64,000 nucleotides of DNA, taken from assembly GCA_009889515.1 (NCBI GenBank), contig WUQR01000139.1, positions 806,001-870,000 on the forward strand. Direction: 5' to 3'. Source of the stretch: Nitrososphaerota archaeon. GTDB lineage: Archaea > Thermoproteota > Nitrososphaeria_A > Caldarchaeales > Calditenuaceae. The translations under genes were made by a program, and so were the position numbers. A model generated the notes under the pieces. The model did not search any database. It saw only the letters and a program-made list of their open reading frames with translations, and had not been told where the DNA came from. Below, one piece after another: positions 2,507-53,746 of this stretch (positions within the stretch are counted from its first letter, which is position 1; every line of letters begins with the position of its first letter).

Positions 2507-2941
2507 TCAAGCGTATCTTTGATCGATTATTGACCTGATTTCTGCGGGTGTCTTTCCTTCTAGGTAGAGGTTCCTCGCGAGTATCGCTTCATCAACACAT
2601 ACTTGGCAGTTTGATCCGTGTGTATCAGTGAAGCATTCATACAGGCTTCTGTGGTAGGGGGTGTGCATTGGATTATCGCAGCCACAATAGCACCTTATCT
2701 GTTCAAGGAGTTCTGGATACTGTTTGGCTGTCATGTATGCTTCCCTCACAACACCCTTGAAAAGGTCAGGGTTTAAGACGGGTTTTCTACCTTCAATAGT
2801 ACCCAAAGATGTCTGGGAGGGTGTCTGAGGCCAGACAAGCCAAGCAATGAGGGCTGAGAATAAGATAAGCGGAAGAAGGGCTTTTAGAGTTGACGACAGT
2901 TTACTACTGGTGCGCTTCTTCACTCTATTTCTCATTTTCAT
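2507..2941 (-). CDS. membrane-anchored CYCGC-motif protein
   Basis: This 144-residue protein has a basic N-terminus, one membrane segment (about residues 17-40, 'LLPLILFSALIAWLVWP') and an external domain with many cysteines. The domain reads 'CYCGCDNPMHTPYHRSLYEC' followed by 'CQVC', which matches the family of proteins defined by a PCYCGC motif, whose biochemical role is unknown to me. The closely set Cys and His residues suggest binding of a soft metal, and the gene stands beside copper genes. Its membrane anchor is nearly the same as that of the cupredoxin at 7990-8496. A TATA-like AATTAA near 2970 puts the transcript start at the ATG. The copper role is inference. Confidence 0.75.
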   Translation of the reverse strand: MKMRNRVKKRTSSKLSSTLKALLPLILFSALIAWLVWPQTPSQTSLGTIEGRKPVLNPDLFKGVVREAYMTAKQYPELLEQIRCYCGCDNPMHTPYHRSLYECFTDTHGSNCQVCVDEAILARNLYLEGKTPAEIRSIIDQRYA

Positions 2942-3182
2942 CCCACAAAGATGCTATCAAAGAACTAATTAAAGTTTGTCAGAGTCTAATCATAACCGGC
3001 GTGGTGGTCGTGGACATATTTTGGCTTTGGACGCAAAATTTCTATACCCTTTAGGCGAAAATTTTTCAGTCCTCATTTCCGAGAAGAGAATGGGCTGGTG
3101 TGTATAAACGGTTCTAACATTTCATACATAACAATAACAAGACATATATAGGAATGTGGGGTTGGATATCCGTAAAAGGGGT

Positions 3183-3890
3183 ATGTCGGAGATCTCGTAC
3201 CTTTTGCCCCTCGCTCTGGTTGATGGTCTAAATATCTGCGTTCTTAGTATAACCGCTCTACTGATATCCCTGATGTTTACATTTGGTTTGAGTAGGATCC
3301 AAACCCTATTGATGGGTGCTGCCTTCATTGCCGCAGTCTATGCATCGTACTTTGTTGTCGGGCTCGGCTTCCTCATATCTATCTCGGGGTTCCCAACTGT
3401 TCCTCACATATTAGCCAGAATCAGCGCCGCGATCATGCTTTTTATAGGATCCGCCAACATAGTAAATTACTTTTACCCGGGCCTGTTGCCGATATACAAT
3501 GTCTCAGAATACTTTGCAAAAGGTGCTGTATATTTGATGAAGAAGGGTGCTGTTCAGTTGACAAAAATGGTGGCGTTCCCAGCACTTATAGGGGCTGGCG
3601 TACTTACTGGGCTGCATAGCTTTCCCTGCGCATGTACAGGCGGAATATATACGCTATTTCTTTCAACCCTCTCTATGCAGAGTAGCCTGAATCTCTTCTA
3701 CCTCTTTCTCTACAACACACTCTTCATAACCCCCTCCACAACCATACTACTGATTTGTACCAATAGGCATGTGGCAGTTCGGGTACGCAGATGGCTGACG
3801 AGTAGGCATGGGCTAGCGAAGCTGTGGCTTGGCGTCGTCATGGTAATTGTGTCGGCCCTCATACTCTGGGGAGCTCTGACCACCCACTAG
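3183..3890 (+). CDS. CcdA/DsbD-like thiol-disulfide membrane transporter
   Basis: The protein has about six membrane helices and the two cysteine-bearing half-repeats of the CcdA family: 'LALVDGLNICVLS' in the first helix and 'SFPCACTGG' in the middle. Proteins of this family carry reducing power from cytosolic thioredoxin across the membrane to extracytoplasmic thiol proteins, including copper chaperones and CuA maturation factors. That fits its position between a Cys-rich membrane-anchored protein and copper genes. A TATA box (CATATATA, 3143-3150) predicts a transcript start near 3173, so ATG 3183 is preferred over the GTG at 3156, which would lie upstream of the transcript start. The partner substrate is not shown by the sequence. 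Confidence 0.8.
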   Translation: MSEISYLLPLALVDGLNICVLSITALLISLMFTFGLSRIQTLLMGAAFIAAVYASYFVVGLGFLISISGFPTVPHILARISAAIMLFIGSANIVNYFYPGLLPIYNVSEYFAKGAVYLMKKGAVQLTKMVAFPALIGAGVLTGLHSFPCACTGGIYTLFLSTLSMQSSLNLFYLFLYNTLFITPSTTILLICTNRHVAVRVRRWLTSRHGLAKLWLGVVMVIVSALILWGALTTH

Positions 3891-4108
3891 TCGCCAGACA
3901 CGGAATCTGCCATGTAGATGGCCTAAAGACGGCCCCCTCTTACATTGTAGGCGCCCTCAACGTTCTAAATTTCATATAGCTTGCCTGAGCTCTGCCCACC
4001 CCTGCGAAAATGCAATTCTAGTATAGAAGAGATTAAGAGACAGGGTAGAAAATACAGTAATCAGCTCACCATAATCTCATATTTATTTTATATGTCACTC
4101 ACGTGTAC

Positions 4109-4720
4109 ATGTGGAAGAGTTTTATCCCACCCGCCGGTTCCAAGCACATGCAGGAGGGAGTTCCTGCACCCCGGACTGTTACCCCACTATCATACGCCAC
4201 ATTAATCGTACCGATAGCTGGTCTCATCATAGCGCTTGCGTCTAGAGATCTCAGGCTCCTCATTTATACGCACGTCATAACAGGTGGGACATGGACCGGT
4301 ATAGACTTGTTCTATGGGCTGGTGTTGAGCCGGGTGATGAAGGGGCTCACTCCAGATTCTCGGGCAGAGTTTGTAAAGAGGATAGTTCCAATCGCGGTAT
4401 TCTTCGTGCCTGTCCTAGCGGGGGTGGCAATAACATCAGGAATTACATTGGCTCTACGCTACAACATTCTTGACTTTAAGTATCCCATGATTGTGATAGC
4501 CGTTGTGGTAGTGACTGTCCTTGTGATACAGGGCTTCGGAATAATATTACCCAGTGAGATAAGGATATACAGGGAGCTGAGGAAGGAGGTTCCGGACAAG
4601 GATAAGATAGTCCGGCTAGGTCTTCGCATCTTCAGGATGACTGGAAGCCAAGCGATCTTCCAGCTGGCCTTAATCTATGTGATGGCTAATCTAAGGCTTG
4701 GGATACTCAACCCATTCTAA
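4109..4720 (+). CDS. four-to-five-helix membrane protein, CopD/DUF2269-like
   Basis: About 203 residues with four or five hydrophobic helices. One helix carries 'YTHVITGGTWTGIDLFYGLV', a histidine followed by a G-x-x-W-x-G pattern also seen in CopD-like, DUF2269 and HemJ-type membrane proteins. The gene at 43218-43706 has the same pattern. The role is unknown; copper transfer or haem binding through the helix histidine are both possible. ATG 4109 is preferred over GTG 4103 because an AT-rich TATA-like stretch at 4081-4088 is about 26 bases upstream. The gene lies in the copper island but has its own promoter. Confidence 0.65.
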   Translation: MWKSFIPPAGSKHMQEGVPAPRTVTPLSYATLIVPIAGLIIALASRDLRLLIYTHVITGGTWTGIDLFYGLVLSRVMKGLTPDSRAEFVKRIVPIAVFFVPVLAGVAITSGITLALRYNILDFKYPMIVIAVVVVTVLVIQGFGIILPSEIRIYRELRKEVPDKDKIVRLGLRIFRMTGSQAIFQLALIYVMANLRLGILNPF

Positions 4721-4789
4721 CACGCGTACATATTCACGATTCCAATCTCCAATCGCTTCCCTCATATCAACCCGGAACAGCTGCCCCGT

Positions 4790-5011
4790 TCATTCCCCTT
4801 TCAACTTTTTGCGGATGAGCGGAACCAATATTGGTGATGAGATGATGAGTGAGAGGGTGAAGACCCATGCGGCTCCTATGTAGATGTCAATCTGCGAATA
4901 CTTGCCGAGCTGTAGTGCAGCCAGCACAAAGAGTGTGGTTACTAGGCCGGCGAGCAATAGGCATGAGCCCGCTGTAACTAACCTAGCAGTCACACGGCTC
5001 ATTTGCATCAC
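4790..5011 (-). CDS. small two-helix membrane protein downstream of copA
   Basis: A 73-residue protein with two hydrophobic segments ('[20 protein letters not shown]' and '[20 protein letters not shown]') and a basic tail. Its start overlaps the copA stop by four bases (ATGA), which argues for a true gene translated together with copA. I do not recognise a family. It may be a small partner or assembly factor of the copper ATPase, but nothing beyond position supports this. It has no Cys pair or Met-rich stretch. Confidence 0.6.
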
Positions 5012-7539
5012 CTGACTCTCGGCTTCATCCTCTTCATCGTGAGGGTGTTCATGGTTACGGTGAAAGAACTGAGGGCCATTAGCAGGGCTGCTAGTTCGGG
5101 GCTCACTACGAAGCTCATGGACGGGTAGAGGATGCCCATGCCTAATGGCACGGCAGTGGCGTTATAGAAGAATGCCCAGAACAAGTTCTCCTTAATCTTT
5201 CTCATAGTGCGTTTGCTGATGTCGATGGCATTCACCACGTCTCGGAGGTCGTCCTTGATAAGGACTATCTTCCCCGCCTCCATCGCGATGTCTGTACCAC
5301 TTCCTAGCGCTATGCCGACATCCGCCTGGGTTAGCGCCGGAGCATCGTTGATTCCATCGCCTACGAATCCCACCTTCTTACCCTCGGCCTGAAGCTTCCT
5401 TACTTCCTCCGCCTTGTCCTGCGGCAGGACCTCTGCCAATACACGCTTAATGCCAAGACGCTTAGCTATCGCGTTTGCCGTCCTCCTGTTATCACCGGTG
5501 AGCATGGCAACTTCGATGCCCATCTCCTGAATAATATTAACGGCTTCTGCAGAGTGTTCCTTAAGAGTGTCTGCGACCGCTATAACTCCGCAGGCCTCGC
5601 CATCATAAGAGAGGATCATAACTGTCTTCCCCTCGTCCTCCAGGGCTGCTATCTTCTCCTCCAGATCGTCTATCCTTATTCCCTTGCTGGTCATCAGTTT
5701 TCTGTTGCCTAGAAGGATTGTCTTTCCATTGTATGCTGCTTGGACCCCCTGCCCCGGTATAGCCTCAAATGACTCTGGGTCTGGTATGTCGAGACCAAGT
5801 TCCCTAGCCCTTTTCACAATTGCCTTCGCTAGCGGGTGCTCCGACCTCTTCTCAGCAATAGCCGCCATCAAGAGCAGCCATCTCTCGTCACGAGGATGTG
5901 GGTTGGCGCGTATAGCTGGTGCTGCCTTTAGCACTACATCGGTTACTGACGGCTCCCCTTTAGTTAGAGTACCTGTCTTATCGAAGATGATGACGTCAAG
6001 CTTATGGGCCATTTCTAGGGCTTCACCACTTCTTATCAGTATCCCGTTCTCCGCCGCCTTGCCTGTTCCCATCATAACAGCTGAGGGAGTGGCGAGGCCC
6101 ACGGCGCATGGGCATGAGATGACTAGTACAGCTATTGAGATAAGCAGGGCGAGTGTGGCTGGAGAGGCTTGGGGAACGACGCGGTACCAGAACCCAGTAA
6201 AGATCTCCTCGCCCTTAGGTACGAAGAATGCTTCATAGCCAATGAAGAACCAGAAGAGAAACGTTATCAGAGCTAAAACGTGTATGGCGAAGATGAAGTT
6301 TCCTGCAACCCAGTCTGCCAGCCTCTGAATTGGGAGCTTAGAGGTCTGAGCCTGCTCAACAAGCTTTATAATTTGTGCTAAAGCGGTATCCTTACCAACT
6401 TTAGTTGCCCTAAACTTGAGAAAGCCTGCCTTGTTCACCGTTCCACCTATAACCTCATCACCTACCTTCTTGTCCACTGGCATACTTTCCCCCGTGATCA
6501 TGGACTCATCTACGGAGGAGTATCCTTCAATCACTATACCGTCTACGGGAATCCTTTCACCTGGCCTCACTAAGACTACATCCCCGATCTGAACATCATC
6601 CGCTGATATCTCCACCTCTTCACCATCCCGGATCACCCTCGCAGTCTTAGGCTTAATCTCCATGAGCCTCCTGATGGCCTCTGAGGTTCTTCCACGCGTT
6701 ATAGCCTCTAGGAAGCGTCCTAGGACTATGAAGGCTGTTAGAAGGGCTGCTGCCTCAAACCAGACGCTTGGGAGCCCACCCCCGAAGGGGAAGAATGTAC
6801 TGAAAGCGCTGACTGAGTATGCAGCGCCTATACCTGTGGCGTAGAGAAGGTTCATGTCCGTTGCGCCGTGCATCAGCCCTCTAAAGGAGTTAACAAAGAA
6901 CTGCCTAGCAGGACCAAACACTACTATAGAAGTGATAGCAAGGAGGAAGAATTTATTCTCCATAAACTCGGGAACATAAAAATAGTTCAGCCAATACATG
7001 CGGAACTCTCCCAGCATAACTATCAACGCTAGTGGAGTTGCAAGGGCAAGGTTGATTGTCTGCCGTCTTATCTCCTTCCTCCTCTCAAGCTTTCCCCTGT
7101 CAATCGTCAGCTCTGCCTCAACAGCCTCCGACGCCTCATAACCTACCTCCCTGACCGCTTTAACCATCTCCGAAATTTTAACGTCAGATGCGTATTCGAC
7201 TGTTGCCTTACCCAAGGCCAAATTTACCGTAGCATCAAAGACTCCATCCACATTTCTGAGCGCATTCTCAACCTTCTGGACGCAGGAGGCGCAAGTCATC
7301 CCCTCAATCTTTAAGGTAACCTTATTTGTGAGAACTCTATACCCCACATCACTTATAATCCTCTTCAAGTCAGAGAGGTGCACTTTACCCGGGTCATACA
7401 CGACGTAAGCTTTAGCAGCATTGAAGTTAACACTCACATCTATCACTCCTTCTAAGCCTCTTAGAGCCTTCTCTATCGTCTGAGCGCATGAGGCGCAGTG
7501 CATTCCACCAATCTGCAGGTCTATTTTCTTCTCCTTCAC
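5008..7539 (-). CDS. copA: Cu+-exporting P1B-type ATPase CopA
   Basis: An 843-residue copper pump that exports Cu+ with ATP. Two N-terminal heavy-metal-binding domains have 'GMHCASC' (C15, C18) and 'GMTCASC' (C83, C86). The membrane part has the P1B-1 signature '[11 protein letters not shown]', with the later '[11 protein letters not shown]' and '[13 protein letters not shown]' helices that complete the Cu+ site. The soluble domains show 'DKTGTLT' (phosphorylated Asp), '[10 protein letters not shown]', '[11 protein letters not shown]' and the 'TGES' loop. The start is GTG at 7539 with an AGAGGTG ribosome site. It follows the YHS gene by 55 bases and precedes a small membrane protein, forming an operon under the palindrome at 7855. 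Confidence 0.97.
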
Positions 7540-7594
7540 AAAATTACACCTCTACTGAGATACGTCCAAAAAGTCTTGTAAGCCGCACCAGTTA

Positions 7595-7813
7595 TCAACA
7601 ACAGCCCGTATGATGGTGCCCTCTATGTCCACCGTGGCTGTGCAGCTCGTCCTCTTCAAGTTCAACTGACCCCCCATGCTTGTTTTCAAATTCATTTGCA
7701 CAATGCTCGCTACAAAAATAATACTCAACACCTCCGACAATTCTCTTGATCGCTTTCTTCTTTTCTACGCTCATGCCACACACAGGATCCTTAGCTTTCC
7801 CGAACCCGAACAT
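7595..7813 (-). CDS. YHS/TRASH-like metal-binding protein with His-rich tail
   Basis: About 72 residues starting at ATG 7813, where a GGTGA lies just upstream. The body is a YHS domain: 'DPVCGMSVEKKKAIKR', then 'EYYFCSEHCANEFE'. The two cysteines of 'CSEHC' and the one in 'VCGM' form the metal site. The C-terminus 'HSHGGHRGHHHTGCC' is a dense His/Cys cluster that should bind copper or a similar metal. As the first gene of the copA operon it is probably a cytosolic copper chaperone or buffer that hands copper to CopA. The longer reading frame, from 7915, would cross the promoter palindrome and is not favoured. Confidence 0.8.
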   Translation of the reverse strand: MFGFGKAKDPVCGMSVEKKKAIKRIVGGVEYYFCSEHCANEFENKHGGSVELEEDELHSHGGHRGHHHTGCC

Positions 7814-7854
7814 CTTCACCACAATATTGAGCACAGTCGAGTAAAAAGCTAGCT

Positions 7855-7870
7855 CTTTACGAATGTAAAG
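7855..7870. promoter_or_regulatory. palindromic operator before the YHS-copA operon
   Basis: CTTTAC-GAAT-GTAAAG is a perfect 6+6 inverted repeat with a 4-base spacer. It lies about 20 bases downstream of a TATA-like element on the minus strand (7879-7888), so it covers or abuts the predicted transcript start. The same half-sites occur at 8501-8516. A copper regulator is the likely ligand. Confidence 0.65.
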
Positions 7871-7989
7871 AATGGGGACTAAAAATCTAACATGTATCAG
7901 ACTATACGAATACACATTTAAGAGAGGAACCTATTAGGCGGATTTTTAATACGTGACCCGCAGTAGACCGATCAATCGTGAAGTCGTTT

Positions 7990-8496
7990 CTAACTCTCGA
8001 CTATTAACTGGCCCCTCATTGACGGGTTATTACGGCCGCCGCAACAGATATCGCAGTAAAATACGTAGGTTCCTGCCTGAGTAGGTGTGAAGGAAGCTTC
8101 ACTTGCGCCTAAGGGAGGCGCGACTATATTCACACCCATCTCGTCGATGGCAAATTGGTGCTTGCCCCCTCCATCAACGTGGTACTCATTGTCTAGACTG
8201 ACAAGTCTTACAGTCAGTTTCTCTCCCACCCTTGCTCGGATTATATTTGGTCTAAAGCCAGCCATATCTGCTTGGACTTCTACTACCCTGCCAGCTCCAG
8301 ACTGTGCCGGGGACTGCGACGTTATCTGCGACTGTGAGTATGACTGTGGTGTCTGAGGCCAGAGCAGCCAACCCAAGAAGATAATAAACAGAATAAGTGG
8401 AAGAGCTGCCTTCAATGCATCAAGGAGGCCTCGCTGCCTTCGTTTTGTTTTCTTACCTTTCATCAAATAGTATAAGACCTGCTCCAATAAATACAT
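7990..8496 (-). CDS. membrane-anchored CuA-like cupredoxin
   Basis: A protein of 168 residues (or 157 from ATG 8463) with a basic N-terminus, one membrane anchor ('LPLILFIIFLGWLLWPQTP'), a Ser/Gln-rich linker and a cupredoxin domain like cytochrome oxidase subunit II. The ligand region shows His in 'GKHQFAI' and 'YCDICCGGRNNPSMRG': two cysteines spaced as in CuA and a Met, but Asn where CuA has the second His. The domain should face outside the cell and bind copper. It is expressed divergently from the membrane protein at 8670, and the palindrome at 8501 sits on its transcript start. Role as electron carrier or copper scavenger is open. Confidence 0.82.
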   Translation of the reverse strand: MYLLEQVLYYLMKGKKTKRRQRGLLDALKAALPLILFIIFLGWLLWPQTPQSYSQSQITSQSPAQSGAGRVVEVQADMAGFRPNIIRARVGEKLTVRLVSLDNEYHVDGGGKHQFAIDEMGVNIVAPPLGASEASFTPTQAGTYVFYCDICCGGRNNPSMRGQLIVES

Positions 8497-8500
8497 CCGT

Positions 8501-8516
8501 CTTTACACATGTAAAG
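8501..8516. promoter_or_regulatory. palindromic operator, second copy (cop-box-like)
   Basis: CTTTAC-ACAT-GTAAAG has the same half-sites as the site at 7855. Its core TACACATGTA equals the TACAnnTGTA 'cop box' known from CopY-regulated bacterial copper genes, though no CopY is seen here. It lies about 27 bases past a TATA-like TTTTTATT (8533-8540, minus strand), over the predicted start of the cupredoxin transcript, and could also affect the divergent gene. Confidence 0.65.
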
Positions 8517-8599
8517 TATGCGAGTCTCACACTTTTTATTTGTAACAAGGAAGGCATATCTTTTAGTTTAAGGATTTAATGTATGAAAGGAGGTAATGC

Positions 8600-8680
8600 A
8601 TGATGCTGCCCAGCCTGTCTTCAGACTATTGTTGCGCAGTACAAGGTATCTCTTTGGAGGGGATGCCCCATGGTAGCTAA
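8600..8680 (+). CDS. possible 26-residue Cys-Cys small protein or leader peptide
   Basis: ATG ATG at 8600 follows a strong GGAGGT ribosome site (8589-8594) with a 5-base gap. The 26 codons include '...SDYCCAVQG...' and end at TAA 8678-8680, which overlaps the first codons of the next gene in another frame. The next gene has its own GGAGGGG site inside this ORF. The arrangement suggests translational coupling, and the Cys pair suggests a metal-binding or copper-sensing peptide. It is short, so chance cannot be excluded. Confidence 0.42.
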   Translation: MMLPSLSSDYCCAVQGISLEGMPHGS

Positions 8681-9617
8681 GCCAAATTATTTGAACAGGC
8701 ACGTAGCCATCGGCTTGCTGTCTGCCGGGGCTTTGTTCACCGTCTATTTCTTCATAATGGTTATTGCACAGTCTCTAGCGGCCGCCGTTGAACAGTTTAT
8801 TCTCCTCTCGCCTCTGATGATTCCATTGTTGGCGGGATTTGGTGTCCAAGTCTCACTCTTCTCCTACGCGAGACACAGAGCCGCAACCCTACACGAAGGC
8901 ACTGCCTGCGTATCCATAACGGGAGGGGTTTCAACAACCGCCATGTTAGCTTGCTGCATCCACCACATAACTGATGTTTTGCCCCTGGTAGGGTTTACGG
9001 CCGCGGCCATATTCCTTACAGCCTACCAACCATACCTCATCGTCGTAGGGCTGCTATCAAATGTTGTTGGCATCACCTTCATGCTAAACCTGATACAGAG
9101 GCACAGACTCTATGAAGACAAGGGTATCCTAGCTGGATTGATGCGTATAAATATGGCTAAGGCTAAAAATACGGCACTAGTAACTTCTGTTATAATAGGC
9201 TCGTTTATGCTGGGCTGGGGAATTCTAGGTACTGTCGCCATGTCATCAGAGCAGGAGAGCAGCAACGTGATAATGCTCCCCAAGCAAGTCAGTGAGGCAA
9301 ATGGGCTGACAGTAGAGGTGACCCCACTCCCATACTCGGTAGGCAAAGAACTCTCCTTCAATATTAAAATGGATACTCACGTAGGTGACCTATATTGGGA
9401 CATGCTCTCTGTCGCCATACTTCAGGACGATAATGGTAGAATTTATTATCCAAAGTCATGGAATGGATCTCCTCCGGGCGGTCATCATAGAGACGGGATA
9501 CTAACATTCCCACCATTAGATTACCAACCCCGCTCTATCAGACTTATCCTGAAAGGGTTGTACGGTGTTGACAGGGTCTTTGAATGGAATTTTGTAGAGG
9601 AGATGGCTTCAGAATAA
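8670..9617 (+). CDS. multi-spanning membrane protein with CCxHH motif and C-terminal beta domain
   Basis: The 315-residue protein has about five membrane helices over the first 190 residues and a C-terminal domain of about 110 residues that looks like an extracellular beta sandwich. The membrane part contains 'TTAMLACCIHHITDVLPLVG', in which two cysteines and two histidines face each other within a helix, a likely metal site. I do not know a characterised family, but its place between a cupredoxin and a TRASH-type regulator and opposite the second palindrome argues for copper handling. The C-terminal domain has 'GSPPGGHHRDG'. The start ATG 8670 has a GGAGGGG ribosome site. Function is inference. 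Confidence 0.7.
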   Translation: MVAKPNYLNRHVAIGLLSAGALFTVYFFIMVIAQSLAAAVEQFILLSPLMIPLLAGFGVQVSLFSYARHRAATLHEGTACVSITGGVSTTAMLACCIHHITDVLPLVGFTAAAIFLTAYQPYLIVVGLLSNVVGITFMLNLIQRHRLYEDKGILAGLMRINMAKAKNTALVTSVIIGSFMLGWGILGTVAMSSEQESSNVIMLPKQVSEANGLTVEVTPLPYSVGKELSFNIKMDTHVGDLYWDMLSVAILQDDNGRIYYPKSWNGSPPGGHHRDGILTFPPLDYQPRSIRLILKGLYGVDRVFEWNFVEEMASE

Positions 9618-9650
9618 GCAGGGCTCTATGGATGAAAAGTACCGCAACCA

Positions 9651-9658
9651 TATATATC
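9651..9658 (+). promoter_or_regulatory. TATA box of the copT-like gene
   Basis: TATATATC centred near 9654 predicts a transcript start at about 9680, which is the A of the chosen ATG. This supports a leaderless mRNA and decides the start against longer in-frame readings from 9584. Confidence 0.6.
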
Positions 9659-9679
9659 CCCATAGTGATGATGTTGTGC

Positions 9680-10309
9680 ATGCCCCTAACTCTTGACAAG
9701 TTAGACATAGCAATACTGCAGGCTCTCATGCGGGATGCGCGGGCATCATATAGACAAATAGCCCGCACCCTGAGAACAACAACGCCTACAATTGCATATA
9801 GGGTCGAGCGCCTCAAGAAGGCTGGATTGCTCAAAGGCTTCATTCCAGTTCTAGACCTTGAGTCGTTCGGCAGGGGGGCCGCCGGCCTAATATTCGCCAA
9901 GGTGAAAGGCAATACGGCAAGAGAAATAATTGAACGCATATTAGCTATGCAGCAGGTACGTGGTGTCTTTCTCATAAGTGGGGAAAGTAACCTACTGATC
10001 AAGGTTGCCTGCAAGGACCTTGTTGGATTCCAGCGGTTCGAGGAAGAGCTAGCACGCATCGAAGGACTTGAGATAAACAATGTAATCATGATTATCCGTA
10101 GTTTGAGGGATGAGCCAGGTTTCCCACTGGAAGAAGGGGTAGTGGTCGAGCTGAAGTGTGACTACTGTGGCGGACCCATCAGAGGGGAGCCGCTTACATT
10201 TAGGGCTGGAGGCGCATACGCCTTCTTATGTTGCCGTTCATGCCTCCAACTCTATAGAGAAAAGTATCGCACCAGAATCAAGAAACTCAAACAAAAACAA
10301 ACAAACTAA
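9680..10309 (+). CDS. copT: Lrp/AsnC-type regulator with C-terminal TRASH domain (CopT-like)
   Basis: 209 residues from ATG 9680. Residues about 5-50 are a winged helix of the Lrp/AsnC type ('LDIAILQALMRDARASYRQI'), residues 55-150 a RAM-type ligand or oligomer domain, and residues about 157-195 a TRASH metal-binding domain with 'CDYCGGPI' and 'FLCCRSC'. This order of domains is that of CopT/CopR of Sulfolobus, which controls copA in response to copper. The protein should bind copper through the TRASH cysteines and control the island; the palindromes at 7855 and 8501 are natural target candidates. A basic tail ('KKLKQKQTN') follows. The link to these operators is inference. Confidence 0.85.
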   Translation: MPLTLDKLDIAILQALMRDARASYRQIARTLRTTTPTIAYRVERLKKAGLLKGFIPVLDLESFGRGAAGLIFAKVKGNTAREIIERILAMQQVRGVFLISGESNLLIKVACKDLVGFQRFEEELARIEGLEINNVIMIIRSLRDEPGFPLEEGVVVELKCDYCGGPIRGEPLTFRAGGAYAFLCCRSCLQLYREKYRTRIKKLKQKQTN

Positions 10310-11971: not shown

Positions 11972-12788
11972 CTAGAGACCTCCTTTCACCATCTCCACTT
12001 TGCTTTTTGTGTAGTAGTCGAAGAATCTTATGTAGCCGCGCTTGTAAAAGAAGAGAAGGCCTATGATTAGGTCCAGCGGGAGTAGAAAGACCTTCCCAAT
12101 GTTTCTTATCCCTGCTTCTATTAGATCCAGCCTTCGATTAGCTATTGTTACCACTCTTATCCCGAGAAGATAGCGTCCCGGGGTTTGACCCTTGTATGCA
12201 TCCAGTAGTGTGAGCGTGATGAATATGGCGAAGAAGATATGTGAGTAGGCTGCAACTACTCGAAAGATCAATCCCCCGATCTCAGGGATATGCTCTGGGT
12301 GGAATAGCCAGGGGTGGAGAACTCTCAGCTCGGTGATGTGCATTATCGATTGCATAAGAGCGTTCCAGAGGAATGGGTCTAACCATACTCCGCTGAATAC
12401 GAAGAAGATTAGACCGTCGATAAGGAAGGCTGCGACTCTTCTCGCCAATATGTTGTGGGTGAGGGCTGGCTTCGGAAAGAGCGTGTCCACGGTGGCTAAG
12501 CTGGACTGCACCTTGGTGATGACGTCGTATGCAAGCCTTCCCATGTTTGATAGGACATATTTTCCATCCTCTGTTATGTCTATGAGTTTACGCATAGATC
12601 TTAGATGAAAGTTGAAGAGACCCTCCTCCACCGCAAGCTCTCTTAACATCTCAGAATATGACAGCTCTATTCTTTCGTGGAGCAGAACAATGATCTTTCG
12701 CCTAAGCGGGTGGCAGAGGACGCGGTAAAAATCATCCTCAGTTTGCCCCTTATCTTCTTGAGGCTTCCTCGAGCTCAGAGAAGGTCAC
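11972..12788 (-). CDS. HTH-RDD membrane protein, N-terminus apparently frameshifted
   Basis: The C-terminal two thirds form an RDD-type membrane domain with 'ARRVAAFLIDGLIFFVFSGV' and 'GQTPGRYLLGIRVV'. Upstream of the only ATG (12649) the same frame stays open and encodes a winged helix: 'DDFYRVLCHPLRRKIIVLL' followed by '...SEMLRELAVEEG', so the ATG would cut the HTH in half. A TATA box (12809-12816, minus) predicts a start near 12786, where GTG 12788 begins 'MTFSELEEASRR' and stops after 12 codons in a frame one base away from the HTH frame. The parts suggest one gene joined by a +1 shift or broken by an indel. Role: a membrane-bound regulator, inferred. Confidence 0.6.
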
Positions 12789-13044: not shown

Positions 13045-13620
13045 ATGAGCAGAGCGTACTTGGTTCTCAGTCTTGTCAGCTTGGTCATCGCCGTCGCAGC
13101 GGTAGCACTAGTCGTCGGACAAACGTCGTCTACAACGGCTCAGCTCGATGCAATATCAGGCCAGCTCAATAGGCTGTCTGGACAGCTGAACGAGCAGGCT
13201 GTAACTCTTGACGAATTAACGGCAAAGGTAGGCCCGAAGACTCAAAAGTTTACAATCGTACTGGGTGAGGGTAAGATAGTACAAGAGGTGAATGAGGAAG
13301 AGGAGCTTACGGGCGAGTTCCATAGATGGGAGCCGCCTGTTCTAGTTGTGCGGAAGGGTGACAAGGTGGAGCTGACGGTGAAGAACCCGCGGAGCCACGC
13401 GCACTCCTTTGTTCTGGCAGACTTTGGCGTCGATACAGGCAGGATACCTGGGAAGGAGGAGCAGCCCGACGAAGCTAAGCGTACCGTGATGGTGTCCTTT
13501 GTTGCCGACAAAGCTGGAGTGTTCCAGTTTAGATGTGGTATACCATTTGATCATGAAAAAGACGATTGTGATGCAGATCACGCATACATGGTTGGATACT
13601 TGGTCGTATTAGAGGGGTAG
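13045..13620 (+). CDS. membrane-anchored CuA-like cupredoxin with coiled-coil stalk
   Basis: About 191 residues from ATG 13045. One N-terminal membrane segment is followed by a heptad-like stalk ('LDAISGQLNRLSGQLNEQ') and an external cupredoxin domain. The ligand set looks like CuA: 'HAHSFVL' for the first His, then Cys in 'FRCG', Cys in 'DDCD', His in 'DADH' and Met in 'AYMVG'. The second half C-x3-H-x2-M has the CuA spacing, but the two cysteines are ten residues apart instead of three. It probably accepts electrons from the Fe-S/NrfD module that follows. The longer frame from 12982 would add 21 residues without a clear reason. Confidence 0.8.
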   Translation: MSRAYLVLSLVSLVIAVAAVALVVGQTSSTTAQLDAISGQLNRLSGQLNEQAVTLDELTAKVGPKTQKFTIVLGEGKIVQEVNEEEELTGEFHRWEPPVLVVRKGDKVELTVKNPRSHAHSFVLADFGVDTGRIPGKEEQPDEAKRTVMVSFVADKAGVFQFRCGIPFDHEKDDCDADHAYMVGYLVVLEG

Positions 13621-13626
13621 GTTGAT

Positions 13627-13830
13627 GTGTACTCGACAAGGTCTCCCACACCTTTTTTTCATCACACTAATTTTTATTATTGTTTGATTATCACTCCTAT
13701 TCTTCTCACTATGATTTCCTCAGCAGTTTTGATGGGAGCGTTTCCGTTGGGGCAAAGACGCATAGAACCTACGGCCACGCACGCTGGTGAATATCTAGGC
13801 CTATCCATGTTTTGGAGGGTGAGCCTGTGA
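13627..13830 (+). CDS. possible 67-residue single-span membrane protein
   Basis: GTG 13627 begins six bases after the cupredoxin stop, and the frame ends with a GTGA overlap onto the ferredoxin gene at 13827, an operon-like fit at both ends. The product has one strong membrane segment ('FYYCLIITPILLTMISSAVL') and a short polar tail. Against it, the first part is T-rich and could be a terminator plus promoter; a shorter form from ATG 13711 is possible. No family is recognised. Confidence 0.35.
   Translation: MYSTRSPTPFFHHTNFYYCLIITPILLTMISSAVLMGAFPLGQRRIEPTATHAGEYLGLSMFWRVSL
13653..13659 (+). terminator. poly-T tract after the cupredoxin gene
   Basis: Seven T residues 33 bases past the stop, followed by a further run near 13671-13678, would serve as an archaeal intrinsic terminator. 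If used, the cupredoxin is transcribed apart from the Fe-S/NrfD genes. Confidence 0.35.
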
Positions 13831-14612
13831 AGATCTCGAGACGTGAACTCTTAGCTGGAGTAGTATCGGCGCTTGCCGGTACTGTAGCGTCGGCCTCGAC
13901 TCCCGAGGCTAGTCAGCCAACAGAGCTGGAGGTTTCGAGGGTAAGGGCAGAGGAGAGAAAGTGGGTATTCGTCATAGACACGGATCGATGTAACGGCTGC
14001 ATGAAATGTGTTGAGGCCTGCCAGGAAGAGATGAGGGTTCCTCCTGCTTGGGGAGAGCATAACTACAACGGGCGACAGCCTTGGATAGAGGTGTTTGAGA
14101 GGGATGGGTATTTTTTGCCAGTGCTCTGTCAGAACTGCCAGAATGCCCCGTGTGCCAAAGTATGTCCGGTAGGCGCAACATTCTATTCAGAAGACCATAT
14201 AGTCCTAATAGATCAGGAGAGATGCATCGGATGCCGTATATGCATAACTGCATGCCCCTACCAGCGCCGCTTCTTTAACTGGTTCGACCCCCCACAAAGT
14301 GAAGACGAAGCAAACACCCCCTACTCCCCAGACTACAATATTCCCCACAGGCGTGGGGTTGTTGAAAAGTGTATATGGTGTAGGCACAGGATTTTAGAGG
14401 GGAGACTGCCCGCCTGTGTAGAGGCATGTACGAGGGCGGGACACAGGGCCTTATTCTTCGGAGACGCCTCTGAAGACGTCGTGTCAAATGGCGATGAGAC
14501 TGTCAGGCTGTCAGAGATCGTTAAAGGTAGGGCGCCCTTCAGGTTGAAAGAAGAGTTAGGCACAGAGCCGCGCGTGATCTATCTACCGCCTAGGGGTGCC
14601 GGTTCTGTATGA
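13827..14612 (+). CDS. Tat-exported four-cluster ferredoxin, DmsB/NrfC/PsrB type
   Basis: Start GTG 13827 follows GGAGGGTGA by four bases and puts a twin-arginine signal at the N-terminus ('ISRRELLAGVVSALAG'). The mature part has four cysteine groups for [4Fe-4S] clusters: 'CNGCMKCVEAC', 'CQNCQNAPCAKVCP', 'CIGCRICITACP' and 'CIWCRH...CVEAC'. Such subunits carry electrons between a molybdopterin enzyme and an NrfD-type membrane subunit. Here the NrfD gene follows with a four-base overlap, but no molybdopterin enzyme is present nearby, so electrons may pass to or from the cupredoxins instead. That last point is inference. Confidence 0.93.
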   Translation: MKISRRELLAGVVSALAGTVASASTPEASQPTELEVSRVRAEERKWVFVIDTDRCNGCMKCVEACQEEMRVPPAWGEHNYNGRQPWIEVFERDGYFLPVLCQNCQNAPCAKVCPVGATFYSEDHIVLIDQERCIGCRICITACPYQRRFFNWFDPPQSEDEANTPYSPDYNIPHRRGVVEKCIWCRHRILEGRLPACVEACTRAGHRALFFGDASEDVVSNGDETVRLSEIVKGRAPFRLKEELGTEPRVIYLPPRGAGSV

Positions 14613-16552
14613 CCGCATCAACCTATCTGAAGATTGACGCTCTCATCAGGCCAGTACAGCGTCATGGAACCCTCTTCTACGTAGCCTTCGCCACCCTCTT
14701 AGCTGTGGTGGCTTGGGGGGTTTACGCCTGGTCCGTACAGCTTGCCACAGGTCTAGGAGTTACGGGCTTGAGAACGGTCGTTTGGGGGTTCTATATCATA
14801 AACTTCGTCTTCTTCATCGGAATAAGCCACGTAGGGGCCCTCATCTCTGCAATCCTCAGGCTGACAGGCTCTGATTGGCGGCGCCCGATAACAAGAATGG
14901 CGGAGGCCGTAACCTTTGCCTCACTGTTTGTCGCCATGCTTATGCCTTTAATAGACTTAGGCAGGCCGGACCGGATATTGAACTTACTGATGTTTGGAAG
15001 AATTCAGTCGCCTCTAATATGGGACTTCATAGCGATTGGAACATACTTCGTAACGTCCACTCTGTACCTGTATGTTCCGATGATTCCCGATATAGCAGTA
15101 CTCAGAGACTCTGTGAAAGATGCATCATCATGGAGGAGAAGGTTATACAGCCTGCTGTCTCTGAATTGGATGGGGACGCCTGAACAGTGGAGAATACTTG
15201 AGCAGGCCATGCGCATACTCACCATACTAATAGTATTCATGGTGATAACCGTGCATACAGTTGTCTCTTGGGACTTTGCCATGACGTTGAGGGTCGGCTG
15301 GAACAGCACAATTTTCGGACCATACTTCGTGGCTGGGGCCGTCCTCTCAGGAGTAGCAACAGTGATTATCATCATGGCCCTCGTCAGAAAGCTTCTAGGT
15401 CTAGACGCGTTTATCACGGAAAAACATCTACACACAATGGCAAAACTGATGCTCGCACTAGTTCTGATACTCGTCTACCTGACAATCAATGAACACTTGG
15501 TGGTCGGCTACAAGTATCTAGGCACTAAAGAGCTTGAGGGTGTGTGGCTCTCATCACTCTTTTGGGGCTCCTATGCTCCATACTTCTGGGTACAGATAGT
15601 TGGCGGCCTCATAGTCCCGGCCTTCCTTCTCGCCTACCCTGGCACACGCAACATTAAGGGCTACCTCGCTGCATCGATCCTAGTCAACATTGGCATGTGG
15701 TTAGAGAGGTGGAACATCGTTGTCCCCAGCCTAGCAGTGCCTCAGCTCCCATATCCTTGGGGGACATATGTTCCCACATGGGTCGAGCTATCGATAACCG
15801 CGGGCGCATTTTCACTCTTCATGCTCATCTACTTGGTTTTCACCAAGCTCTTCCCCATCGTATCTATATGGGAGACGGTGGGCCATGAGCAGGCTCCGGC
15901 TGCCTTGGCTGCCGAGCCTTCTGCCTATCCAGTTCTAAAACTAATCGTCCCACATCCAGAAGCCCAGGTTGAGAGGCCTATCGAAGTTAGAAGGAGTGCT
16001 ATGAAGACAGTCGCTGTAGCAGCGGTGGGGCTGGTAGCAGGCCTTGTTGGGGGCGCGCAGCTTAAGAGCCTCATAAAGGCTTTGTCAAGCGGCAGAGGCG
16101 CCGCTACGCCGTTAAGAAGAAGCCTGGGTGTCCTGGGGATCGCATCCGATATGAGTGCTTTTAATGACTTAGGACTCAGAGTCAGGAGGGAGGCCCTTCA
16201 AAAGCTGGGCTCAGCCAGACTCACTAGCATAAGATACAACCGGCAGGCAGCCCTAATATCTCTAGCATTCCATGACCCCTCAACACGCAGTCTAACCCTC
16301 TACGATGAGCCGGTATCCGTTCTAGTCCTTATCCAGAGGATAGGCGACAAGTTAGGCCCTCCTGAGACGATTTTGCCGAACGTGACTAAATTCGAACTTC
16401 CGAGGGGCAGCGTCGCCCTACTAAATGAGAAAACGTCGCCGCCCAAGCTAGAGGTGTGGCAGAACCACTACAAAGTCAGTATCCTTGGATACTACGGAGC
16501 GGAGGCACTAAAGAGATTTGCCATGCAGATCGAGGAGGCGATCTTGAAATGA
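14609..16552 (+). CDS. nrfD: NrfD/PsrC-type quinol-interacting membrane subunit with extra C-terminal domain
   Basis: 647 residues. The first 430 or so form eight to ten membrane helices of the NrfD/PsrC/ActC family, including 'FFIGISHVGALISAILRL' and 'MPLIDLGRPDRILNLLMFG', which bind or oxidise quinol. A further membrane segment ('VAVAAVGLVAGLVGGAQL') then leads to an extra domain of about 150 residues that I do not recognise. The gene overlaps the ferredoxin gene before it (ATGA) and the cupredoxin gene after it (ATGA), so the three are one translational unit. The family usually has 300-450 residues, so the added domain is a special feature of this lineage. Confidence 0.88.
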   Translation: MTASTYLKIDALIRPVQRHGTLFYVAFATLLAVVAWGVYAWSVQLATGLGVTGLRTVVWGFYIINFVFFIGISHVGALISAILRLTGSDWRRPITRMAEAVTFASLFVAMLMPLIDLGRPDRILNLLMFGRIQSPLIWDFIAIGTYFVTSTLYLYVPMIPDIAVLRDSVKDASSWRRRLYSLLSLNWMGTPEQWRILEQAMRILTILIVFMVITVHTVVSWDFAMTLRVGWNSTIFGPYFVAGAVLSGVATVIIIMALVRKLLGLDAFITEKHLHTMAKLMLALVLILVYLTINEHLVVGYKYLGTKELEGVWLSSLFWGSYAPYFWVQIVGGLIVPAFLLAYPGTRNIKGYLAASILVNIGMWLERWNIVVPSLAVPQLPYPWGTYVPTWVELSITAGAFSLFMLIYLVFTKLFPIVSIWETVGHEQAPAALAAEPSAYPVLKLIVPHPEAQVERPIEVRRSAMKTVAVAAVGLVAGLVGGAQLKSLIKALSSGRGAATPLRRSLGVLGIASDMSAFNDLGLRVRREALQKLGSARLTSIRYNRQAALISLAFHDPSTRSLTLYDEPVSVLVLIQRIGDKLGPPETILPNVTKFELPRGSVALLNEKTSPPKLEVWQNHYKVSILGYYGAEALKRFAMQIEEAILK

Positions 16553-17496
16553 GGAGGTCTACAACTCTTCTCACAATTATCATGCTGTTGAGTAGCCTGT
16601 ATCTCGTAGCCCTACACCTACCACATACGGCAGTGGCCCAAATAGAGGTGTCAAGCTCGAACACTCAACCCTCGGTGAAGGAGTTTACAATAATCGTCTC
16701 AAGTATGGGGTTCAACGGCTCAGCAGAACTCAGGATAGAGGTGAACCAAGGAGACACGGTTAGGATAACCTTTTTGTACGGAGATCATGGCATGAAAATG
16801 GGTAATCCCCACATAATCGAGATTGAAAAATTTGGTGTAAAGGTTGAACTCAGCGGAGAGGAGGAGAAAAAGGTTGTAGAGCTGACAATTAACCAGCCCG
16901 GAGCATTCAGCATTAGATGCATATTACGCTGTAGGGGTCATGAGAACCTTCAAAACGGGGTATTAGTTGTCAGGGAGACCGAGACATCCATCGAGTCCTT
17001 ACGCCTGACCATTTTAGCCGACGAGAGTCAGCCCGGCATATATCTCCTCACCGCCAAGGCTATGACGGAGGACGGTCAACCCGTACAAGGAATCCTAGTC
17101 GAGTTCCTAGACTATACCCCTCTAGGATATGTGAGCATAGGGGCTATACCTACCAACATAGATGGAATAGCCGCCTTGGAATACAAGCCACCAAAAATTG
17201 GTCCAAGACAAATCTTAGCCGTCTTTGGAGGAAGCGGAAGGTTCAAGCCAGCGAACGCAACTCTCACCATTACCTCTACTATTGCATCACCACCGCGGCT
17301 TCCAATCGATCTCTCTGAAACATCCGTTCGAGGTGAGAACCTGTGGCCTGACCCTAGGCTGGTCGGCGTTCAGGCGGGAGCAAATACTGTCTTGGTCGTC
17401 TTGGCCACATCTGTCGTCGTAACGGCTTGGATGATAGTGCTGTGGACTGTCCGATCTATTCTCAGGCTGAGGCGGGAGGGGATGCCGCGTGGGTGA
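16549..17496 (+). CDS. exported cupredoxin-like protein with C-terminal membrane anchor
   Basis: 315 residues from ATG 16549, which overlaps the nrfD stop. It has a signal peptide ('LLTIIMLLSSLYLVALHLP'), a cupredoxin-like domain, an Ig-like beta domain (about residues 150-250) and a C-terminal membrane helix. The copper site resembles CuA: His in 'GNPHIIEI' and 'RCILRCRGHENLQNG', giving C-x3-C-x2-H-x2-L, with one residue fewer than CuA before the His and Leu in place of Met. It is the natural electron partner of the ferredoxin/NrfD pair on the outer face of the membrane. Partner role is inferred from gene order. Confidence 0.75.
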   Translation: MRRSTTLLTIIMLLSSLYLVALHLPHTAVAQIEVSSSNTQPSVKEFTIIVSSMGFNGSAELRIEVNQGDTVRITFLYGDHGMKMGNPHIIEIEKFGVKVELSGEEEKKVVELTINQPGAFSIRCILRCRGHENLQNGVLVVRETETSIESLRLTILADESQPGIYLLTAKAMTEDGQPVQGILVEFLDYTPLGYVSIGAIPTNIDGIAALEYKPPKIGPRQILAVFGGSGRFKPANATLTITSTIASPPRLPIDLSETSVRGENLWPDPRLVGVQAGANTVLVVLATSVVVTAWMIVLWTVRSILRLRREGMPRG

Positions 17497-17974
17497 CGCG
17501 CAAAGACGGACATCACTAGCCCTTATGCTGGTCGCGGCTCTAGGCTTGGTAGTCGTATCAATAGGTATACTGGACTTTATGAAGCCATACAGTCCAACTG
17601 TTTCCACGACGCTAAATATCAAAGGATACAACTTTGCGAGAGGTCTTTCGCAGCTATCTCTGGCAGTGGCGAACGAGCATGTAGAGCCTGTCTTGATTAA
17701 AAGCATCAAGGTGAACGGTGTCGAGCTGAGGTTTGAACCTTTATCGAGCTCCCAGTTATTTAGGGGGAGCGAGGCTGTATTTGCCCCCTATGGGGGATGG
17801 AGATGTTCATACATAGTTGGCTCGCAATGCGTGATTCCTCCCCGCGGAATAACAAATCTGTACATCGGGATTGCTTGGGAGCCCGGAACAGTCTACAACA
17901 TAGCACTCATCACAGATAAGGGCGTTTTCACCTTTAAATTGACAGCGCCGCAACAACCTACTTCTAAAACCTGA
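17489..17974 (+). CDS. membrane-anchored protein of unknown function, last gene of the Fe-S/NrfD operon
   Basis: 161 residues, GTG start with GGGAGGGG ribosome site, overlapping the previous gene by eight bases. One N-terminal membrane anchor ('LALMLVAALGLVVVSIGILD') is followed by a beta-rich external domain with 'WRCSYIVGSQCVIPPRG', two cysteines that may form a disulfide. No metal motif is visible. Its position makes it a likely accessory or structural subunit of the membrane complex. Confidence 0.65.
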   Translation: MGDAQRRTSLALMLVAALGLVVVSIGILDFMKPYSPTVSTTLNIKGYNFARGLSQLSLAVANEHVEPVLIKSIKVNGVELRFEPLSSSQLFRGSEAVFAPYGGWRCSYIVGSQCVIPPRGITNLYIGIAWEPGTVYNIALITDKGVFTFKLTAPQQPTSKT

Positions 17975-32842: not shown

Positions 32843-35800
32843 TTACTTCTTGCCTAAAGACTCCAATTCGGAAATAAGGTGGGAAGAAGTCAGGTTCTCA
32901 AAAGTCCTTCTCGCCAGATCCATTTTAGGATATATGACCTCCCTGAAGCCGGTGACTCCCTTAGCACGTCCCGGAACATTTAAACCAAGGGGCATCTTTA
33001 GAAACTCTACTGCGAGCCCATAATTCTGTTCAGAGTTTTCGAGGAAGTAGTTTATGACTCTTTCAATGTACCAGTCCCTGAATTCTTCTTCCTTTCTATG
33101 TCTAAACAAATATTTCCGGAGAAACTTCATCCTTCTAACAATTCTTAACTGCCAGTTTCTAGTATTCATAACAAATTTGATTTTGAGCACGCCATTTTCG
33201 ACATCCAATTCAACCTTTCTGTTCGCCAAATTAGGCGAATGTCTTTTCAAGAAACTTATAATCTTCCCCAAACGTCTTCCCACTCTGATAACTATCTGAG
33301 GCTCTGTCAAATGGATGTATTCAATTCTATCACCTCTCTCCACGTTCACGTTATATCTAATCCTGTCTCTTTCAAGCTTCTCTCTACTTAGTAGTAGCTC
33401 GGAAACCCACAACTCATCCTTTATAGCCATTACTTTGTACAAATTTTCTATGACTGCTATGGTAGCCGCAAATCCTTTTTCCTCCCTGTCTTTATAATAA
33501 ACCTTGGAGACCAGATCAATGTATTTCTTAGCATAGTCTATACCGCCCCACCTGATCAAGTCGTAAACCCGTATTGCAAGATGTTTCAGGGTATCCTCAT
33601 CCAACTTTTTATCGATCATAAAATCTCTTACTAGCTTCTCATACATGTCTGCAATTTTCACACCTCTCGACTTTATCAAATAGTAATCCTTTAGATACGA
33701 CTTTTTCTCAGACAGCACCTCTTCTAACGACTTTCTTGAAAACCAGATGTCTTCATGGTATATTCTCAAGAAATCAGGGTTATTCATCAACCTCTCCAAG
33801 AAATTCTTGTCATGGACAAGCTTCCTCCCGAACCTAAATGCTCTCAAATTCTTTTCTTTCTCAAACTTAACAGACTCTATTATTGCGGCCTCAATATCTT
33901 TAGAGTCCAGTGGTAATAAGCCTAGCTGGTAGCAGACACCCAGCATGACTATATTTGAGAATAGTTTACTTCCGAGGTAGAACTCAGCAAGCTCTGAAAT
34001 TGGTAGGCCAAAATATTTATCTAAACCAAGCCTGCTTCTAATTTTATCGTCTATATCGTGTGGATACTCCTCACCTCCAACAAGCATAGGGATGGTTGGT
34101 AGTTCTGTTTGATTCGAAACAAATCTCGTATTAGCATTTGCATACTTCAACCCCCTTAAGCCTTCCAGCTTATCAAGCCCGATTATCAGATCTGCCTTGC
34201 CAGATACAATAACAGGGGATAATCTATTATTGTTTTTGGTAAACATTATATGACTATACACCCCGCCATTTCTTTGAGCCAGACCCTTCTTATCGTGGCC
34301 TATCCACCCACCAATATTATAGCCGCTCTTCGCACCTGCACGGGCTAAAATGACAGAGAGCAGCCCTCCACCCATACCACCAATAGCCCCGGTGTATATG
34401 GAGTAAGTATCGTTAAACTCCACCTTTTCATCAGGTTCCGGCACGTCATCCAGATCTGCATCACGCAATCTCTCTTGCGGTTTCCCTCCTGCATAGACTA
34501 CTCTAACCTTCTCGAATGAGGGGCAAGCCTCTATTTTCGCACAATACTCGTCTTCGGTACATACGGACATGTCTATCGCGACTTTCTCGCCGTAAGGTGT
34601 ATTGACAAGGGTTAGCCCTGGGCAGCCCGTGTTAATGGTGCACTCCCTACAGTTCTCACAGACTTCGTTAGTTATGTTTATGAATTCCGTCTTGGGTCTT
34701 CCAGCCCTCTCAGCCCTCCTTCTCCTCTCCCTTGTTATGCCGCATTCTTTATCAGAAATCAATACGGCTGTGCCTCTCTTACTCATAAGCTTTTTCAACT
34801 CCTCGATGTAGCCTCGCCTATCATTTGGATCTATTATCCTGATGTAAACATCCTTGCCTCTGCTCATGGCTTTGATTTTTTCCTCCAACTCTTTTGCATC
34901 TCTGATCTGGACTTTTTGATGACCTGTCATAGCAACATAGTGGTTATATAATATTACAATGATGGCGTCTAGATTCTTGTCTATTGCTTCCTGGACAGAT
35001 ACGTATCCGCCATGCAGGAAGGTTCCATCACCCATGAGAAGCACTTTCTTATTCTCGACCAGCCCCATCGAATATGCAGAAGCCCCTGCGCGACCCATCG
35101 CGTTGAAGGCGTGGGCCTCCCTCCAAGGAGTAAAAGCCGACATCGAGTAGCATCCAATGTCTGGTATTGTGAGGAAATCGTTATCAGGATACTTCCTCAG
35201 ATATTTAAGAACGCTATTAGTTCCCCTATGCGGGCAGCCGGCACAATAGCTAGGAATCCTCCTCGGCGCCTGTAATACGTATTTGCTCGCGCCGTCGACA
35301 AGATTGAGCACCTCTTTTATCCTCCTTCTCTCCTCATGTGACAGATTATCTAACACTATGAGTAGTTCTTCGCCTATTGTCCTGATCACATCAGTAGGAC
35401 TCAGGCCACCATGCTCAGGGAAGCCCTCCCTATCGTTAGGGAATCTTTTCCCCCAGACATTAACATATCCGATTTCTCTGTTTTGATATGCATTCTTCAG
35501 AATCAAAGAGATCTCAGACTCTATGAAAGGCTCTTTCTCCTCCACCACGTAAATGTTTTCAACCTGTCTCGCAAAATCTTTAACCAGAATTTCATCAAGC
35601 GGGTATACTAGCCCCAATTTAAGAATAGGGAATCTCCAACTCACCCCAAGCTCATGCAACGCTTGTTCTAGATAGCAATAGGCCAATCCAGAGGTGACGA
35701 ATCCAATTTTACTTTTCCCACCATTCGAATAAAGTATTTTATTCAAAGTCCTCGCTCTTGCATGACGTATTGTAGCTTGAAGACGCCTCAAGACAATATC

Positions 35801-53702: not shown

Positions 53703-53746
53703 CAAAAATCCAACTCCAGAGCCCCTTATTTAACCTGAGGCCCAGC

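Follow-up and report, generated by a model that had tools for sequence, protein, structure and literature searches.

A molybdopterin-free ferredoxin-NrfD module with CuA-like cupredoxins as a probable quinol:cupredoxin oxidoreductase beside the alternative complex III lineage

In a 64,000-nucleotide stretch of contig WUQR01000139.1 from a Nitrososphaerota archaeon, referred to below as the window, five genes code for an exported ferredoxin, an NrfD-type membrane subunit, two cupredoxins, and a small membrane-anchored protein. As judged from sequence comparisons, this module is probably a molybdenum (Mo)-free membrane quinol:cupredoxin oxidoreductase. It belongs to a cross-domain clade beside the lineage of alternative complex III (ACIII) with an exchangeable electron exit domain on an adaptor composed of an immunoglobulin-like (Ig) domain and a transmembrane (TM) segment. 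Quinol:cupredoxin oxidoreduction, put forward in the original prediction, remained the best reading of a Mo-free NrfD-ferredoxin pair wired to cupredoxins, but the proposed replacement of a cytochrome bc complex and the restriction to archaea had to be given up.

Table 1. Genes of the module and the divergent neighboring gene (positions in the window)
Feature	Coordinates	Strand	Remarks
Cupredoxin 1: N-terminal TM anchor, C-x10-C-x3-H-x2-M copper loop	13045..13620	+	ORF, family matches; orthologues in HR01 and L035
Tat-type four-cluster ferredoxin (DsrO/NrfC/PsrB/ActB C-terminal kind), 16 Cys	13827..14612	+	Alternative start TTG 13812
NrfD/ActC-like membrane subunit with predicted quinol site (aa 1-430), followed by a C-terminal TM and a soluble domain of ~150 aa (aa ~460-647)	14609..16552	+	
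Cupredoxin 2: signal/TM, CuA-fold cupredoxin (C-x3-C-x2-H-x2-L), Big/Ig-like domain, C-terminal TM	16549..17496	+	
Small protein: N-terminal TM anchor and soluble domain	17489..17974	+	Orthologue in HR01
Divergent RDD-family membrane protein with HTH-like N-terminus; candidate regulator	11972..12649	-	Beside the module in HR01 (L021) and a DOMON-type module in L024

The genes for the ferredoxin, NrfD, cupredoxin 2, and the anchored protein overlap successively by 4, 4, and 8 bases, and the reading frames and protein families agree with the original description of these four genes as one unit. The overlaps, together with the synteny described below, suggest that the products assemble into a complex. 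Cupredoxin 1 may form a separate transcription unit, because the gap of ~200 bp between its gene and that of the ferredoxin contains T-runs. For the ferredoxin, the GTG start codon, which lies behind GGAGGGTGA, appears more likely than the TTG alternative. The RDD-family gene with the HTH-like N-terminus is oriented divergently to Mo-free NrfD modules in three genomes (Table 1; L021:12454-13200; L024:2602-3648), and these modules include both cupredoxin and DOMON types.

To the left of the module, a copper island (2507-10309) codes for a PCYCGC protein, a CcdA-like membrane protein, a copper P-type ATPase of the CopA type with two HMA domains, an AsnC-type regulator with a TRASH domain, and a TM-anchored NosZ-CuA-like cupredoxin (7990-8496) with a C-D-I-C-C loop that lacks the usual His. 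Judged by reading the sequences, a compact heme biosynthesis cluster (36973-43221) comprises glutamyl-tRNA reductase, porphobilinogen deaminase, uroporphyrinogen synthase, ALA dehydratase, GSA aminotransferase, and uroporphyrinogen decarboxylase. On the minus strand, a gene for a 1213-aa protein (32843-36484) appears to join the alpha and beta portions of indolepyruvate ferredoxin oxidoreductase to an additional domain.

The 16 cysteines of the ferredoxin are arranged in four groups, and its translation starts with an RR signal (MKISRRELLAG). Its best NCBIfam model was DsrO with 188.7 bits, below the cut-off of 200, and it also scored with QrcC. NrfD (647 aa) is the single match to PF03916 in the genome (E 8e-34) and weakly matched DsrP and QrcD. 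Its closest solved relatives are the ActC chains of ACIII, to which its core aligned over ~400 aa with E values of 8e-71 (6f0k_C) and 3e-92 (five-sequence profile). In the alignment with ActC, residues S164, D169, D253, and R395 of Rhodothermus (R. marinus) ActC correspond to S134, D139, D222, and R367 of the window NrfD, and His139 corresponds to D116. The quinone-site and gate residues were named by Calisto and Pereira (PMC8076601), and Asp occupies the ActC His139 position in PsrC of Wolinella, HybB, DsrP, QrcD, and TtrC (PMC8076601). As the four residues are retained and D116 is an Asp as in these relatives, NrfD preserves both its quinone site and the gate proposed for protons. The subunit exceeds the core by ~200 aa, which form the additional C-terminal TM and soluble domain. 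The soluble part was modeled from a two-row alignment with a pLDDT mostly of ~85. No identity is claimed for this domain, which had no Pfam family above the cut-off and in a fold search with that model gave weak matches (best 1vr8, E 0.011; RseB weaker).

The lack of a molybdopterin subunit in the module extends to the whole genome (2.1 Mb, 95.5% complete), in which PF00384 had no match; the same search gave matches in 10 of the 15 genomes tried. This search detected no subunit hidden elsewhere in the genome, and the co-occurring molybdopterin subunit that the original prediction had named as evidence against itself was not found. The five other genomes of the genus lack the module, so that one of six contains it. 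Three of these five (G006, G009, and G010) instead possess an operon of a Mo subunit, a ferredoxin, and an NrfD, and an operon of this composition forms a second locus in Archaeon HR01. The Mo-linked NrfDs of the same-genus genomes and HR01 share ~42% identity with the window NrfD and form a separate clade with a support of 100/100. The NrfDs of G006, G009, and G010 were therefore rejected as members of the same module and assigned, by gene neighbors and tree, to the Mo-linked paralogue.

A scan of GTDB genomes yielded at least 568 related stretches, 80 of which were kept; because the seeds were Mo-free archaeal sequences, the proportions of Mo-free and Mo-linked loci, into which the set divides by neighboring genes, do not represent a census. 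When 89 NrfD cores were placed in a tree, those of 48 Mo-free modules, the window module among them, formed one clade (support 98/93). In a quick tree with three ActC sequences added, the 48 again grouped together (SH-aLRT 87), whereas ActC was nested within the sister lineage of Mo-linked loci. By these phylogenies, the Mo-free clade appears as the sister of the lineage holding ACIII. It contains archaea and bacteria and is mostly bacterial, and calling the oxidoreductase archaeal was too narrow.

A protein of the Ig-TM type was encoded at position +1 or +2 in 37 of the 45 clade members with a downstream gene versus 0 of the 31 Mo-linked loci, the latter number being the useful control because some of the Ig-TM query sequences derive from the same loci. 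In most Mo-free modules, the third gene combines an Ig domain and a C-terminal TM with a variable N-terminal redox domain. This exit domain is a CuA-like cupredoxin in the window, HR01, and the cupredoxin-Ig-TM genomes listed below, a cytochrome c in L037, L038, L041, L045, L054, and others, and a DOMON domain in L025 and L023, where Pfam gave it 59 and 51 bits, respectively. L023 also has a Big_1 domain above the cut-off and falls outside the 48-member clade. Acidobacteria (L048, L056, L110) have a separate cupredoxin with the CuA motif and an NrfD-Ig fusion, and Bacteroidota (L072 and kin) have an Ig-Ig-TM protein with an EB_dh heme protein and a cytochrome c nearby. A single clade of the cupredoxin-Ig rows was rejected (AU p 8e-41), and exit domains have therefore been exchanged or lost several times. 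An Ig-TM third gene whose redox domain varies between cupredoxin, cytochrome c, and DOMON heme supports the view that quinol is oxidized and that the carrier receiving the electrons can be exchanged. The archaeal Mo-free NrfD modules in which a DOMON heme domain replaces the cupredoxin are L023, L024, and L025, from genomes G390, G319, and G315, respectively.

The linkage to cupredoxins, whose conservation in relatives was to be checked according to the original prediction, was confirmed in full in HR01 and in part in more distant genomes. HR01 (BEHD01000002.1), which belongs to the same order and another family, contains all five genes in identical order, with the RDD-HTH gene known from the window and a gene resembling methionine synthase on the flanks, and the NrfD cores are 75% identical. 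Orthologues of cupredoxin 1 are present at the equivalent place in HR01 (50% identity) and next to ferredoxin-NrfD in L035, a Euryarchaeota MAG (43% identity), where the protein is encoded after NrfD and shows the same C-x10-C-x3-H-x2-M spacing. The order ferredoxin-NrfD-cupredoxin-Ig-TM was found in a Thaumarchaeota MAG (L034), in Chloroflexi (L033, L055, L059, L069), and in a Symbiobacterium MAG (L062), and ferredoxin and NrfD with a carrier recur across dozens of genomes. Since the five-gene order recurs in HR01 and ferredoxin-NrfD-cupredoxin in further genomes, the cupredoxin link is more than an accident of the window genome.

Both cupredoxins had been described as CuA-like, which applies to fold and ligand order and fails for the exact CuA motif. 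The ligand loop of cupredoxin 2 (C-x3-C-x2-H-x2-L) is one residue shorter than that of CuA (C-x3-C-x3-H-x2-M) and has Leu in place of Met, with the upstream His conserved. This loop is present in most archaeal and Chloroflexi cupredoxin-Ig-TM members; L034 has C-x4-C. In cupredoxin 1, ten residues separate the two Cys, and it and its homologues keep the His, the two Cys, the second His, and mostly the Met. The axial Met is missing from cupredoxin 2 and from HR01 cupredoxin 1, and neither cupredoxin of the window shows the His plus C-x3-C-x3-H-x2-M pattern of CuA proteins. Cupredoxin 2, modeled from an eight-row alignment with a pLDDT of 71, superimposed on the CuA domain of Thermus ba3 with 2.2 A over 100 columns, a fold that fits a CuA domain. 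Sequence searches of the PDB returned cupredoxin domains of copper nitrite reductase for both proteins and, for cupredoxin 2, also the CuA domains of N2O reductase and CoxB. Because loop spacing and ligands deviate although fold and ligand order agree, sequence and model point to proteins that are CuA-like but not CuA. In another family of the same phylum, L138-L142 contain Met-rich and related copper proteins with the loop of cupredoxin 1, and L142 has an additional CuA-motif cupredoxin adjoining an EB_dh-like piece.

The proposal that the module takes the place of cytochrome bc is rejected for the window genome, because Rieske and cytochrome b genes lie side by side on the same contig at 803-804 kb, just left of the window and ~15 kb from the module. 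Almost all relatives without the module contain cytochrome b, too. The module therefore seems to act beside the usual cytochrome bc-type complex and not instead of it, and the presence of a second quinol oxidoreductase has to be explained by different conditions or partners. In G315, G319, and G390, which harbor DOMON-type modules, neither Rieske nor cytochrome b matches were found; as these MAGs are 79-86% complete, the modules might possibly serve as complex III there. The window genome encodes heme-copper oxidases whose CuA subunits are canonical (CFELCGDGHGVM and CLEFCGDGHSAM), and a further oxidase lacks CuA. In a search of the genome for PF13442 (cytochrome c domain) and PF01578 (cytochrome c assembly), neither family had a match, and the module unit contains no CXXCH protein. 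As no cytochrome c was detected with PF13442 and PF01578, a cupredoxin is the likely carrier to the CuA oxidases in this organism. Another possible electron carrier is a multi-TM protein (53043-53705, minus strand) whose C-terminal domain is blue-copper-like (CIPHPWM).

For a quinol:cupredoxin oxidoreductase, we propose that quinol would bind to NrfD near the outer membrane face and be oxidized there, and that the exported ferredoxin would relay electrons singly along its four Fe-S clusters to cupredoxin 2, which is tethered to the membrane. From there they would probably reach CuA-type heme-copper oxidases via cupredoxin 1 or another cupredoxin, or pass directly to the CuA of the oxidase. NrfD may in addition shift protons via two half-channels, as proton movement through NrfD has been proposed for the family (PMC8076601). 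The direction of electron flow, the cupredoxin as physiological acceptor, and proton pumping are the parts of this scheme that we infer.

The same core could also run in reverse, as a cupredoxin:quinone reductase through which a periplasmic donor would supply the quinone pool, similar to Qrc with cytochrome c3. Qrc and Psr share the ferredoxin-NrfD core, Qrc operates towards quinone, QrcC and DsrO are among the models matched by the ferredoxin, and the Asp at D116 is shared with QrcD and PsrC. Cupredoxins, however, generally have high potentials, so that quinone reduction would be uphill; moreover, the unit lacks a periplasmic donor enzyme and CuA oxidases are available as electron acceptors, which makes reverse operation unlikely. 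Somewhat less credible still is a role in copper handling or oxidase assembly, in which quinol electrons would reduce copper or disulfides for the biogenesis of copper sites and the cupredoxins would be copper chaperones. The copper island left of the module speaks for such a role, but none was present within the 20 kb examined around the HR01 module, and in other clade members the cupredoxin is replaced by cytochrome c or by heme proteins of the DOMON/EB_dh kind; because heme proteins can stand in for it, the exit role fits electron carriers and not copper chaperones.

We consider it very improbable that the ferredoxin-NrfD pair is a remnant or unlinked part of a molybdoenzyme of the CISM type and serves a catalytic subunit encoded elsewhere. 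The Mo-containing operons of the three same-genus genomes and HR01 would be compatible with this idea, but their NrfDs belong to the separate paralogue clade, the genome lacks a PF00384 match, and the module genes are intact, with the 16 Cys and the quinone-site residues retained.

If the module is a quinol:cupredoxin oxidoreductase, quinol oxidation by NrfD and ferredoxin would be possible without the Mo-like ActB domain or multiheme cytochromes, and since these would be dispensable, a minimal core of the ACIII type would become accessible in three to five proteins. It would also explain how quinol is linked to CuA oxidases via copper proteins in organisms without detectable cytochrome c, and would show that archaea and bacteria have equipped one core with either copper or heme exits; the existence of a Mo-free sister clade bears on the origin of ACIII. 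The chances are evenly balanced for the wider view that these modules represent a family of Mo-free quinol oxidoreductases that spans both domains, has not been described before, and is the sister of the ACIII lineage, with a ferredoxin-NrfD-Ig-TM core, an exit that differs between lineages (a CuA-like cupredoxin, a cytochrome c, or a heme protein of the DOMON or EB_dh type), and a function as sole complex III in some archaea without Rieske and cytochrome b.

Among known systems, the Rieske/cytochrome b complex likewise transfers electrons from quinol to a high-potential periplasmic carrier, but it consists of unrelated proteins and is encoded at a separate locus in the same genome. DsrMKJOP and QrcABCD resemble the module in the ferredoxin, which is near DsrO, and in NrfD, weakly similar to DsrP and QrcD, with scores below the family cut-offs; the unit lacks DsrMKJ and QrcAB. 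CISM molybdoenzymes of the Psr, Ttr, or Dms type differ by their catalytic Mo/W-bisPGD subunit, which is absent from the window genome by the PF00384 search. ACIII (ActABCDEF), a menaquinol:cytochrome c or auracyanin oxidoreductase, is similar in its ActC-type NrfD with quinone-site and gate residues, in the ActB C-terminal part, to which the exported ferredoxin is homologous, and presumably in quinol oxidation. A precedent for a copper protein as acceptor is auracyanin, the blue cupredoxin that some ACIIIs reduce (PMC8552683, PMC3150298). In contrast to ACIII, the module has the ferredoxin part alone without the Mo-like domain of ActB (no PF00384 in the genome), lacks the multiheme ActA and the heme c protein ActE (no CXXCH in the unit; no PF13442 or PF01578 in the genome) as well as a second NrfD-like subunit ActF (single PF03916 match in the genome), contains no recognizable ActD, ActE, or ActF, and has an NrfD outside the lineage containing ActC. 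ActB was reported to have no archaeal members (PMC10100899).

Another closely related system is formed by NrfD-ferredoxin-multiheme cytochrome clusters of Methanoperedenaceae, which were proposed to be menaquinone:cytochrome c oxidoreductases (PMC7327174, PMC7082337). There, too, NrfD and a 4Fe-4S ferredoxin are encoded side by side without mention of a Mo subunit, and quinol electrons are proposed to move outwards; the window module shows the corresponding gene set, an exported 4Fe-4S ferredoxin with an adjacent periplasmic carrier and no Mo subunit. The partner is a multiheme cytochrome c in Methanoperedenaceae, whereas here cupredoxins on an Ig-TM adaptor were found and no cytochrome c. Some of the Methanoperedenaceae NrfDs cluster with Dehalococcoidales RBG-16-60-22 (PMC7327174, PMC7082337), which is probably the lineage of clade member L041 (Chloroflexi RBG_16_60_22). 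In the openly licensed literature we found no paper in which NrfD is linked with a protein of the cupredoxin-Ig-TM type, which is weak evidence of novelty, and no description of the cupredoxin version, the Ig-TM adaptor, exit-domain swapping, or the sister position to ACIII. Because of the Methanoperedenaceae clusters, Mo-free NrfD-ferredoxin quinol oxidases are already known as a proposal, relative to which the cupredoxin version, the Ig-TM adaptor, and the swapping of exits appear to be new.
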